NCBI GenBank assembly: GCA_032433595.1
Contig: JASWJB010000053.1
Coordinates: 62,001-126,000, forward strand
Source: Conoideocrella luteorostrata
Lineage: Eukaryota; Ascomycota; Sordariomycetes; Hypocreales; Clavicipitaceae
Length of the DNA: 64,000 nucleotides
Direction of reading: 5' to 3'
Under the pieces are notes generated by a model that did not search any database, was not told the DNA's origin, and was given only the letters and a program-made list of their open reading frames with translations. The position numbers and the translations under genes were made by a program. Of the stretch, positions 11,389 through 19,277 are shown in pieces (position 1 is the stretch's first letter; each line of letters begins with the position of its first letter).

Positions 11389-12635
11389 TGTGAGTTATCC
11401 AGAGCCGTTAACCTGGCCACCTGTAAAGAGGCAAGGACAGGTTCCCAGTCGAAATGGGAGAGAATTAGATGGTTGAGTCCCGTGGCCTTGCGATTGCCAA
11501 ATTTCGGGTGGCGGAACGACGTGCCGAACCCGCAGCTGCCTTACCTAATGAAGCACGTAGGACGTGCATCAATAGTAAGTCTACGGAGTATATACGGAGA
11601 ACTCCGTACAGGCAGCGACAATGCATGCACCTTTCCCTTGTACCAACACCTTCCGGATTACTACATTCACGCGGCATGCATAATAAATAGACAAATTATT
11701 GGCTATAAAGCACATGCGTTGAAGTTTTAGAGGAGAGCATGAGCTATTCGAGACGTTTGGAAATCGCAGCGCCCATTTACCAATTAGGTCCTTTGGAGAG
11801 GAGAGGTGCGTAGAGCGTAGTCATAGCCCAGTTCATATTTTGTGGGCGGAAAAGAGCCTCTTTGCTGACGGAATTGTTTCACGTGAAATTTGGATTTGAC
11901 CGGTTTGGTCAAGTAAAGTAAATTAACAATAAGAAAGGGCCCTAACCCGACTGTTAAGTAGATCAACAAGTTTTCCCTTCGCACTTGAATTGTGTCTATG
12001 TTCAGAGCCTTGCTCCTGTGCCTATCATGCCTGAATTGCTTTATTGAATGGCGCTCACGCCCGATAACCTTGGGCTAGGTTGCTCAACCACTTCATATTA
12101 TCGCATACCAGATTACTACGAATTGGTTCAGGTCCCTAGGCAATCTCGTTACTGAATTGAGGTTGTATTGCTAGCCGTGCCAGACACCAGCATACGTGTT
12201 GTGGGTGTGTGCTTTGGGCCGACAATGTATCTAAATAAGAATATTCAACTAAAGCTTAGCCGTCTATTGAAACAATTTTGATGCCAAGTTTTAGCTACAA
12301 TTTTCAGTGGAGACAGGCGCATCGACGTATACAAACACACCATTAAGAATTTGCTCGACGTAGTAGTGGAAGCATAACCTGCACTTATTCGCACTCCCAG
12401 GGGGATCTGACATAAAAAGTATGCCCAATCAAGATGATCTTTACGGTTTGCTGTTTGTCAGGCTGGGTCATGACTTCATCCGCATTCCCGTCGCAGCCCA
12501 TTGTTGGTGTGAGAATGCATAATGTAACTTAATTTGCTAGACGTACATCCTGCACTGTGTGCTAATGTGACCTAACTCGAGAATAAAGGAGCTAATGTAT
12601 ATCTTATCCTCCTCAGTACAATCTTAGCGGGATAA
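11389..12635. other. Intergenic, promoter side of PKH gene
   Basis: 1.25 kb without a supported gene. It holds TACGGAGTA at 11582-11590, a partial inverted copy at 11601-11609, and a palindrome TTTCACGTGAAA at 11877-11888. Several overlapping short frames on both strands have no recognisable product. Confidence 0.5.
11877..11888. promoter_or_regulatory. TTTCACGTGAAA palindrome upstream of PKH gene
   Basis: A 12-bp perfect palindrome with a CACGTG core, about 490 bp upstream of the kinase start codon. It is likely a bHLH-factor site, inferred from sequence only. Confidence 0.35.
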
Positions 12636-13589
12636 TTATTGATCTATTGCCATTGCAGTGTCCGTAAAGAATCCAACGTGTTGCTTGCTTTTGGCTAGGA
12701 CTAGCTCAGGTCCTTCAAACCTGGGTGGTAATAGTTTGAGATTTTGAAGTGCTCCTTCTGCCGTTCGGCTGACTAGTCTACCCTGGCGAAGGTTTTCAGC
12801 GAAGAGGAAATAGCCCTCTGAAGCTTCGACTAGATAAGATTGAAGGCCTTTGCTTTCCAGACACACTTGCACATTAGAAAGTCCGAAGTTGTTCTCGATG
12901 AAGCGGGCCCAGCCCCGGGCAGCGGCTTGAATATGCTCGTCGTCACTAATTTTTCTCCAGCCAATGCCCAGATGAAAAGTGAAGTTGTCGATCACTACCG
13001 TGTTATTGAAATCGTTACCGGATGAGTTGCTCTGTGTACGACTAGACGGGGCACAGTGCAGAGGGATTCGAGCAGATGAATTATCAGGGGCACAATCTAG
13101 CCGCTGTGACTTGTGACTGCGCGTTTCAAGCTGACTACTCTGAGTTTCTGGTACAGCTTTCTGTTTTTCATGTGTCGCTTCTTCCACCCATGTGCCAGAT
13201 TGGCTGCTAGCGTCTGTGACATAGCCAGTGGCAGGTTTGATCAAAACCATGCCCGGACCATAAATCCAGTCTTTCTGGGGGTCGTCAATAGCCACGGGTT
13301 GTGGATCTGGCTCAAGATTAATTGATGCTTCATCTCGAGACCGTTTTCTTCCACCAGATCGTGCAGGGGTGGCTTGAGCCGGAACAGTAGGCGCTGCGTT
13401 GTATTGCATGAGCGGCGATTGGTGGCGTCCGAACGTTCCAGCAGATAGTTGAGTTTGATAGCAAGGTTGTGGGATCACAAGCACTGGAGATGCGGTGTAG
13501 TAATGGTGAGAGAAATTGGCCATACTGGGTGTGAAGCAGTTGTCGAGTTTGGGACTGTTAATGATAAAATTAGTAGTCAATGAATTCAC
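12636..13589 (-). CDS. Uncharacterised protein, probably nuclear
   Basis: Single-exon frame of 317 residues; I do not recognise the family. The N-terminal 130 residues are low-complexity (Ser, Thr, Pro, Gln) and contain a basic stretch GGRKRSRDE that looks like a nuclear localisation signal. The middle has acidic and Gln/Ser-rich linker sequence with DPQKDWIYGPGMVLIKPATG. The C-terminal 110 residues look folded, with hydrophobic and aromatic spacing in FHLGIGWRKISDDEHIQAAA and GWARFIENNFGLSNVQVCLE. Codon use and length support a real gene. A small helical DNA- or protein-binding domain at the C-terminus is a guess. It is flanked by long gene-free stretches on both sides. Confidence 0.7.
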   Translation of the reverse strand: MNSLTTNFIINSPKLDNCFTPSMANFSHHYYTASPVLVIPQPCYQTQLSAGTFGRHQSPLMQYNAAPTVPAQATPARSGGRKRSRDEASINLEPDPQPVAIDDPQKDWIYGPGMVLIKPATGYVTDASSQSGTWVEEATHEKQKAVPETQSSQLETRSHKSQRLDCAPDNSSARIPLHCAPSSRTQSNSSGNDFNNTVVIDNFTFHLGIGWRKISDDEHIQAAARGWARFIENNFGLSNVQVCLESKGLQSYLVEASEGYFLFAENLRQGRLVSRTAEGALQNLKLLPPRFEGPELVLAKSKQHVGFFTDTAMAIDQ

Positions 13590-16348: not shown

Positions 16349-16702
16349 ATCCATGGTACTTGATTGCACAATCGAGGGTTTGGAGAATTATATGAGATGG
16401 GATGGCGTTCTACGGCTTTGGTTGGTTCTTTTACACGCTGGGTACATATAATTCCTACATGGGCGTCAATACTTTGCATTAAAAGCCGTGGTCTTTGACT
16501 TCATAGCACATCTTTAGCCGATATTGTAATTTGCGAGCCCATATGAGAATTGTGGTGTAATGGTTATACAATAGCAACTGATTTCTATGCTTCGTTCAAG
16601 GGAATTTTATCCCTTAGAAACAACTTGTATCGAATCCTGACCTCTGCTTCTATCAGTCGTAACGGTAACATGGCTGTACGGAATCCTATACACATCGGCG
16701 TT
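16349..16702. other. Convergent 3' region, SYN8 / AMA1-like gene
   Basis: A 354-bp gap between converging genes. It contains a box-A-like and box-B-like pair (16553-16637) resembling a decayed tRNA, but no foldable cloverleaf. Confidence 0.5.
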
Positions 16703-19277
16703 TTAGCGTATCACGTCGCCTTCTTTGATGATACCCTGCAAATCTTCCAAGATATCGCTCCCTCCATACATGCCAGGTCTGGTAACCGCTCTGCTTCCTT
16801 CCGTTGACCAGACTTCGTGAAACTTGACAGTTTCGTCGCTGGACGCCACGATAATACACTCATTCAGGACTCTCTGGTCAGTATTCAGCTTCTTTCTCTT
16901 CTTCAGGACGCAGGGGTAAGGTACGGCATGTAAAGCACGTAAATCTACATCCTAAGGAATTACTGCAATTCGTGCACAATCAGGCCAACTAAACACCCCG
17001 ATGCGATATGGATGCTCTGGATGGGCGTAGCCGAAAGTGGCAGCTATCTCTCGTTTGGTATTAGACCAAATCAAGGACGTTACTTGAGCCGCAACAGGGA
17101 TAGTAGCAAGTGGTGACCCGGATATAGTATGAAAGAAATGAATGCACTTGTCGTTCGAGCCACCACCCGTGGCCACCAATCCTTCAAGCCATGGGCAAAA
17201 TGCGATAGCTTTGACTGCGGCTTGATGAACCTACATCTGTAGCTCACAGCCTGTAGATAGGCTTCGCGCATGACTTGGTAGTATTCTGATTGCTTCCGGC
17301 CGCTGTCCCGTAGTTATATTATAGTATTCCTGATCATTGGCAGTATGATGACGCGTTCGATCGTTGATAGCGGCGATTTGTATTGACTGGTTCGCCGCCT
17401 CTCTACTGTAATTCTGTGTTACGATCTGACCTTCTGAACGCAATCCGAGATGCTGCGGTGGTAGAATTTCGTTCACCTCAAAGAGTGCGCACAAGTTATC
17501 ATTAGCGCCTGAGGCGAACAAGTCGCCATTAGACGACCATGCCAAGCCACATATCTGCTGACTGTGTAATGAAATCTTGGCAACTAAGGATACCGACCCG
17601 GGCCAATGATCCCTGGTGTTTTCTGGCCACTCAACCAAGTAATAATACAAATCCCCACACTCGTCTCCGACAATCAAGTCTTCCGTGGCTACCAATGTGT
17701 TAGAACTAAAAGGATTGCTGGAGAATCGCAAGACAGAGCGAGGACGCCAGTTCACACAAGCAATGGCATAAGGCTGCTGAACTTCAAAACGTGGTGTTAC
17801 TTCGAAGAGAGACATGACAATCAAGGTACCGTCAGATCTTCCGGCGGCGAAAATGCTTTTCTTCCCTTCAACAGAAGAGAAAGACAATGATGTGAGCTAA
17901 ACACCATCCTGTTGAACACCGTTCACCGCTCGCACGCCCTCTTTATCCGACCAAGCGTATACAACATTACCCAGTCCAACTGCAAGCGTCTGGAAGCTCA
18001 ACGAATAGGCAAGTACAGAGCAATAGAAGTCATCCCGCAAGTTCGGCGCATCCAATACCCTGAGCAAAGTGTCAGCTCTGATTCACCAAAATGAGTTACG
18101 TCAACTAGACAGAACTTACTTGAACGGCCCAACTGGTAGTGAGCGCAACCTGGCAGGGTTGACCCGGGCTGTGAGTAGATTAGCTAAAGGCTATCAATGT
18201 TGTGATTTTCTTGAAAAGTAAGGCATACAGGATGCTTCAGGTTGTGCAGTAAGGTCTCCTTTCCAGTCTGCTTTGGATCTGCCCCGAATTGTCTCTGTGG
18301 TGAATGCAGCGAGCGAAGTAGTCCTCCACGGATTGAAAGGGGGCAGATTGAAGGCTAGGATTCTGCGGATAAAATTAATGTTGAGAGCGAAAGCAACAGT
18401 GTTGTAGGTATCATGTTTTTTGTGCTCTGATTGTCTGTGTACCGAGCGGGAATTATAATGGTGCATATCCGTTCCCTCATAGATGATACGTTCATCACTT
18501 TGTGCCGGAGTCTGAAAGAAGGAGCGAGGCATCAAATGAAAAGGTACCGTTATAGGTTGTTCGAATTCTGGAGATGGAGGTAGAAAGTCCACTTGGAAAA
18601 CTGTGTCAATATTTCTGAGAGAATGGGTCACACAAGATCAATTGAACTCTCACCCAATCCACTGTCGAATCCAAAGCTTGGTGTTACTTGCAAACCAAGG
18701 GCAGAGTAAAATCTTGACAGCGTCTGATGGAGATCAAGGCTGCTCAAGCCAATTCGAGCTCCAACCCTCATCAATCGCTCCGTCTGAGATAACCTACTTG
18801 CCTCTTTCATGGTTTGATAGCGTTCGTAGCAAGGTGTTGCATGATCCCTGATAGGAACATATCTATCGACTTTTGAGAGCATTGCCACAAACTGACAAAA
18901 TTCGCCAAAGCCGCTGGGGATCGTTCTTGTATTCAATTGTCTGCATGGCGTATAATAACCAAGCCAACTCTGTAGATGGCAGAGGGAATGATCCGAAACT
19001 TAGATTCTGTCAGTGCCAGCACTGTGCCCTCACTCAAATTCCAGTATTGATTCTTACGAGGTCTGTGGTAAGATGCTACTGAAACAGCAAGTAGTCCCCC
19101 GTTCGAAGCTACGAAGCGTGGATTCTCCGTAACCTCAGGGTTGCTGGCTGAGTGGCTGTCTGTCGAGCGGCTCGTGGTGTTATCTGTGCCGTAATTTCTT
19201 ACCGCCGGCAAGTTGCTGGTTTCATTATCGAGGTGCCGCCTGCTAAGTGTGTTCATTGCGTTGCCCGGACGTGGCAT
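16703..19277 (-). CDS. AMA1: AMA1-type meiotic APC/C activator, WD40, with three in-frame TAG codons
   Basis: Cdc20/Cdh1/Ama1-family activator that brings substrates to the anaphase-promoting complex; Ama1 acts in meiosis and spore formation. Exons: 19058-19277, 18654-18998, 18229-18600, 18120-18168 and 16703-18059; introns 59, 53, 60 and 60 nt. All phases fit, giving 781 codons. A C-box (DRYVPIR) lies at about 118-124. VLDAPNLRDDFYCSVLAYS opens the propeller, with later blades QICGLAWSSNGDLFASGAND and AVKAIAFCPW. The protein ends in Ile-Arg, the APC/C-binding tail. The last exon is crossed by TAG at 17897-17899, 17231-17233 and 16952-16954 (codons 383, 605, 698), with no TAA or TGA before the final TAA and no frameshift. 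The second and third replace positions where relatives usually have Trp. It may be a recoded gene or a young pseudogene. The first exon and start are the least certain. Confidence 0.82.

Follow-up and report, generated by a model that had tools for sequence, protein, structure and literature searches.

The closest described counterpart of the gene presented here is FgAMA1 (FGRRES_10728), the AMA1 ortholog of Fusarium graminearum, in which a UAG-to-UGG change was placed in an exon that had been mistaken for an intron (PMC4817773). Editing of FgAMA1 is reported to be needed for production of the full-length protein (PMC11156358, PMC9499528) and to be important for ascospore formation or sexual reproduction (PMC9600606, PMC12582100). 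In PUK1, as PMC4817773 describes it, the position of the UAG among two tandem codons varies by species, and it is the promoter, not editing, that plays the major role in up-regulation. The edited stop of CHE1 has led to false introns and truncations in annotations (PMC11169179). The editing of mRNA is attributed in PMC11087585 to Tad2-Tad3 together with the DUF726 protein Ame1, of which a Met-Val pair at residues 500-501 is required. No report of A-to-I editing in Clavicipitaceae or Metarhizium was found in the literature searched, outside which most subscription journals lie.

The window analyzed here, a 64,000-nucleotide stretch of the genome of Conoideocrella luteorostrata, contains an AMA1-type gene interrupted by three in-frame TAG codons. 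In all likelihood the gene is a functional AMA1 ortholog in which sexual-stage A-to-I editing restores tryptophan at all three codons.

Gene structure and identity

The gene is on the minus strand (19277-16703) and is organized in five exons that join in frame to code for 780 amino acids followed by a TAA (Table 1), as an earlier sequence-only reading of this DNA had proposed. The four introns are 59, 53, 60, and 60 nt long, all with GT..AG ends; the boundaries of intron 1 were set by eye, and because several alternative acceptors of introns 2 to 4 likewise keep the frame, exons 2 to 4 are likely but not proven. Exon 5, which contains all three TAG codons, is independent of the choice of acceptor upstream. 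The coding frame has three TAGs and, up to its terminal TAA, neither TAA nor TGA, and the other two frames have 26 and 33 TAA/TGA codons. No frameshift is present, and the earlier description of TAG as the sole interruption, at codons 383, 605, and 698, is confirmed, although the third TAG has its A at 16953 and not at 16952 as that reading gave it.

Table 1. Coordinates of the AMA1-type gene and its features in the window
Feature	Position	Strand	Remarks
AMA1-type APC/C activator gene, start to stop codon	16703..19277	-	780 codons + TAA
Exon 1	19058..19277	-	
Exon 2, contains C-box	18654..18998	-	
Exon 3	18229..18600	-	alternative frame-keeping acceptors exist
Exon 4	18120..18168	-	alternative frame-keeping acceptors exist
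Exon 5: nearly whole WD40 propeller, three in-frame TAG, IR tail, TAA	16703..18059	-	
C-box DRYVPIR, residues 118-124	18847..18867	-	
In-frame TAG, codon 383	17897..17899	-	relatives: Trp 106/120, His 11, Tyr 3
In-frame TAG, codon 605	17231..17233	-	relatives: Trp 119/120, gap 1
In-frame TAG, codon 698	16952..16954	-	relatives: Trp 115/120, Tyr 1, gap 4
C-terminal Ile-Arg tail codons	16706..16711	-	

The C-box and the Ile-Arg (IR) tail are the APC/C contacts of this family, and both are found in the predicted product, the C-box as DRYVPIR at residues 118-124 and the tail at the end of the C-terminal EGDVIR. The propeller is represented by Pfam WD40_CDC20-Fz (PF24807), which matches the pieces before and after the second TAG (E values of 1.4e-11 and 8.8e-27), with each piece scoring under the curated whole-domain cut-off of 200 bits, and the sequence-only reading was correct in assigning all three elements. 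The nearest solved structures by sequence are CDH1, CDC20, and Slp1, the best match being 4ui9 chain R (E = 3.9e-32). The best relatives (best 120 of 1527) are fungal proteins that are 66-72% identical, several of them named AMA1 by their depositors, and among those listed the product is most similar to the AMA1 proteins of Metarhizium, Ustilaginoidea, and Claviceps. By its C-box, IR tail, CDC20-type propeller, and closer similarity to named AMA1 proteins than to CDC20/CDH1, the gene is predicted to be an AMA1/Mfr1-type APC/C activator. A product ending at codon 383 would be 382 residues long, retaining the C-box and some 50 propeller-region residues (counting from residue 327) but not the IR tail, in agreement with the stub, C-box included and almost no propeller, that had been foreseen.

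A second intact AMA1, which the sequence-only reading had named as a result that would count against editing, was looked for in the 46.4-Mb genome and was not found; a 221-residue piece of AMA1 matched its own locus and one other, a 33% match on contig C284. There are two CDC20/Fizzy-family genes that score over the curated cut-off, on contigs C10 and C284, and neither has an internal stop, among the WD40 matches listed.

AMA1 is adjoined by a family-18 chitinase gene (PF00704; 20477-21460, minus strand). AMA1 models of Purpureocillium lavendulum (P0058) and Fusarium langsethiae (P0171) contain PF00704, which suggests that the adjacency of chitinase and AMA1 genes is conserved and that the two have been fused in these gene models. 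A SNARE-domain gene (PF05739; 15743-16348, plus strand) converges with AMA1, the two stop codons being ~350 bases apart. The segment at 16550-16650 resembles a tRNA gene by eye but was rejected as one, as ARAGORN predicts no tRNA in the window.

TAG codons and tryptophan columns

All three TAG codons fall on tryptophan columns in the alignment of the best 120 of 1527 relatives, and UAG-to-UGG editing would therefore restore the residue found in the relatives. The closest full-length proteins, those of Metarhizium, have tryptophan codons rather than stops at all three sites, among the relatives listed, which is a point against the editing reading. Given the codon make-up of the gene, the chance that three nonsense changes would all be TGG to TAG is between 1.3e-4 and 4.3e-3 (for kappa of 1 to 10). 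Edited adenosines tend to lie in hairpin loops. Predicted local folds place the target A in such a loop at codons 383 and 605 and outside one at codon 698; this is no more than expected from the UA sites of the coding sequence (53 of 115 in hairpin loops), and local folding does not single out the three sites.

Conservation after the stops

Near-invariant columns, defined as those at least 95% identical in the relatives, are kept at 141 of 144 positions in total and at 126 of 129 after the first TAG. By segment, 15/15 are kept in residues 335-382, 46/46 in 384-604, 60/63 in 606-697, and 20/20 in 699-780, with all three losses falling within 606-697. Tajima-style counts, made at the protein level against Ustilaginoidea and three Metarhizium proteins and involving small numbers, show no consistent excess of changes on the window branch. 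Compared with Metarhizium album, the window protein has fewer changes in 384-604 (1 versus 9; P = 0.02) and more in 606-697 (4 versus 0; P = 0.12). A loss of constraint after codon 383, another result that the sequence-only reading had set against editing, is not found at the protein level.

Apparent stops at the same codons in relatives

The protein models of the relatives have gaps and premature ends at the same codons. The sole gap at codon 605 among the best 120 is in Ustilaginoidea virens, in which the model picks up again exactly at 606, and the gaps at codon 698 are in Tolypocladium capitatum, Trichoderma gracile, Trichoderma citrinoviride, and Cosmosporella. In Claviceps, as judged by eye, the model of Claviceps maximensis ends at 604, those of Claviceps sorghi and Claviceps digitariae skip 605, and Claviceps arundinis has tryptophan.

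A query consisting of the piece between the first two stops recovered 35 shorter homologs. In the pooled set of 186 proteins, 157 reach the natural C-terminus and 29 do not, and 10 of the latter were set aside because of unaligned tails. Premature ends fall exactly one residue before a conserved tryptophan in 17 of the 19 aligned homologs, the exceptions being P0144 and P0145. Five end at 604 and seven at 697, the latter including Cosmosporella, Fusarium sp. DS 682, and Fusarium austroafricanum; three end at 618 (P0129, P0142, and P0185, one of which is Fusarium nematophilum) and two at 659 (P0138 and P0139). The tryptophan codons that follow the last two positions, 619 and 660, are intact in the window AMA1. 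Chance alone would hit 12 of 441 columns, corresponding to a binomial value of 4e-25, which is not a true probability because the sequences are related, the query itself ends at 604, and there is no control with an unedited gene.

Among the 24 Fusarium models listed, codon 383 is tryptophan in 8 and missing in 16. Fifteen of these 16, a set picked after viewing the alignment, lack residues 376-383, and seven of them resume exactly at 384. The gap occurs in Fusarium lateritium and Fusarium sarcochroum and in the F. graminearum, Fusarium sambucinum, Fusarium tricinctum, and Fusarium oxysporum groups. The sixteenth gapped model is from Fusarium solani, and because other F. solani-group models have tryptophan, a missing residue does not by itself prove a stop. 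Codon 383 is a tryptophan column within the gap of the Fusarium models, and the edited site of FgAMA1 is therefore probably the homolog of codon 383 in the window. From the missing residues and premature ends in the protein models, relatives seem to carry stops at the same AMA1 codons, and this comparison, proposed in the sequence-only reading, favors editing through its tryptophan columns, codon gaps, and premature ends alike. It is also a warning that AMA1 is truncated or mis-spliced in the public annotations of several species.

Putative editing machinery and other candidate edited genes

DUF726 matches are present at three loci in the genome, one of which (on contig C81) has the Met-Val pair that is missing at the other two. 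At this locus the Met-Val pair, an Asp, and a His are spaced from the serine of a GYS motif as are residues 500-501, 589, and 629 from 531 in FgAme1, and it is a candidate Ame1 gene; its main match runs across one TAG and one TAA as well, which are assumed to lie in an intron. A Tad2-like piece was seen by eye on contig C379. Tad3 was not identified in the genome, and a deaminase on contig C13 was rejected as Tad3, being unlike it by eye.

PUK1 was not found among at least 141 kinase matches listed, in 12 TAG-bearing regions viewed by eye, or with a pattern for kinase subdomain IX. Several of the TAGs in the 12 regions are at the edge of a match or resemble intron ends by eye, and the subdomain-IX pattern has 13 matches compared with 7 for a reversed control. 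One of these, D-W-TAG-S-L-G on contig C211, is a chance match, as its surroundings are not those of a kinase. A kinase-like frame on contig C85 (~12415-12957, minus strand) has an in-frame TAG beside a conserved stretch, followed by TAA and TGA codons in the same frame; an edited gene, introns, and a pseudogene are candidate readings of it. RID and SPO22, two further genes with published editing, have no obvious in-frame TAG in translated genome regions viewed by eye without built gene models. No match to MAT1-1 was obtained in a genome search that had no positive control, and the HMG boxes do not point clearly to a MAT1-2 gene. When the window was scanned by codon score for other genes that a single stop divides, AMA1 itself was missed, and the scan is therefore uninformative.

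Alternative explanations

The sequence-only reading offered a young pseudogene as the competing explanation, in which the need for AMA1 was lost in the lineage and three nonsense mutations drifted in. The presence of three stops in a single gene is in keeping with this, as are the lack of obvious in-frame TAGs in RID and SPO22 here, the failure to find PUK1, and the missing MAT1-1 match in a search without a positive control. However, the frame has no frameshift and no TAA or TGA, leaving a single type of stop; constraint persists past the first stop; all three stops are on tryptophan columns; and several relatives are inferred to have stops at these codons too. A pseudogene is accordingly disfavored and is very unlikely. 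It is even less likely that small introns remove the TAG codons and make editing unneeded. Annotation programs do put introns at these sites in relatives, and there is a related case in F. graminearum, where the edited stop of FgBUD14 is removable by alternative splicing of intron 2 (PMC11156358). GT-AG candidates of 45-139 nt that cover each TAG and keep the frame exist in the window (20/61, 7/12, and 19/57 for the three sites), but none of them combines a donor consensus with a branch site, and splicing would delete residues present in nearly all relatives.

Readthrough of UAG by a suppressor tRNA, or its reassignment to tryptophan, would likewise yield tryptophan at the three sites, but of the 19 long frames that run from stop to stop in the window, 5 end at TAG, some of these ends being possibly intronic, and the two CDC20/Fizzy genes over the cut-off lack internal TAGs among the matches listed; we consider this barely credible. 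Creation of the three TAGs by RIP is just as hard to credit. RIP favors the change of CpA to TpA, which on the opposite strand converts TGG to TAG and is exactly the change required, but no second AMA1 copy was found in the genome, and the RIP indices of the gene are 0.74 and 1.27, compared with 0.60-1.03 and 1.09-1.37 in 16 bins of the window.

Under the preferred reading, sexual-stage editing of AMA1, the unedited genomic frame would yield only the 382-residue stub. During sexual development, Tad2-Tad3 and Ame1 would convert the A of each UAG to inosine, which is read as G, and tryptophan would be inserted at the three edited codons, yielding the complete 780-residue activator, its propeller and IR tail included. 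We infer that editing occurs in C. luteorostrata, that it is confined to sexual tissue, and that it reaches all three sites. The tryptophan columns, the kept constraint, the failure to find a second copy, and the example of FgAMA1 all indirectly support the editing part of the original proposal, but its second part, the idea of a switch with UAG as its off state, is not supported. Because the up-regulation of PUK1 is mainly promoter-driven, AMA1 may already be restricted to the sexual stage, with editing doing no more than repairing its stops.

Within the editing reading, the chances are evenly balanced that the stops are tolerated damage, repaired by editing in a sexual-stage gene, and not a selected switch. 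Consistent with tolerated damage, the apparent stops are at differing tryptophan codons among the relatives (383, 605, 619, 660, and 698), and the up-regulation of PUK1 depends mainly on its promoter and not on editing (PMC4817773). Such recurrence is, however, also compatible with an off state being selected at whatever site it appears, and adaptive advantages are reported for some restorative editing sites in a review (PMC11156358). Turnover of sites between lineages thus fits both a switch and repair of tolerated damage. A broader proposal, to which we give somewhat less than an even chance, is that editable stops have arisen in AMA1 again and again, each time independently, across Hypocreales and relatives and at a minimum of five tryptophan codons, those just listed, and that what is conserved is a gene-level state of being unreadable until edited, rather than any given site. 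The window species, with three stops, would be the extreme case seen here and would act as an AND gate, in which production of the full-length activator requires strong editing of all three sites on the same molecule. Since stops seem to recur at several tryptophan codons of AMA1, gating and tolerated damage can be tested against each other with one gene in many species.

Comparison with known systems

Editing-dependent AMA1 is already known in kind, as FgAMA1 has been published. What seems to be new, relative to the literature searched, is an AMA1 with three stops in a Clavicipitaceae-like species, together with the apparent recurrence of tryptophan-to-stop changes at five codons in relatives, and the reading given here would mean that AMA1 depends on editing not in Fusarium alone but also in a Clavicipitaceae-like fungus.

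CDH1 and CDC20, of the Fizzy family, share the propeller family with AMA1, but, among the matches listed, no internal stop interrupts the two family genes that exceed the cut-off in this genome. CHE1 of Fusarium is similar in having a conserved premature UAG and the same types of wrong gene models in relatives, although it is a zinc-finger gene and is described as edited in hyphae (PMC11169179). PUK1/STK-21 of F. graminearum, Fusarium verticillioides, and Neurospora crassa is reported to be perithecium-specific, with UAGs at tryptophan codons that are edited to UGG (PMC4817773), but it codes for a protein kinase and the two codons are adjacent, whereas the three in the window AMA1 are far apart. 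The closest system is FgAMA1, an ortholog by similarity and likewise an AMA1 with a premature UAG, which is reported to be edited to UGG in sexual reproduction; it belongs to another genus and family, and the C. luteorostrata gene differs in having three stops.
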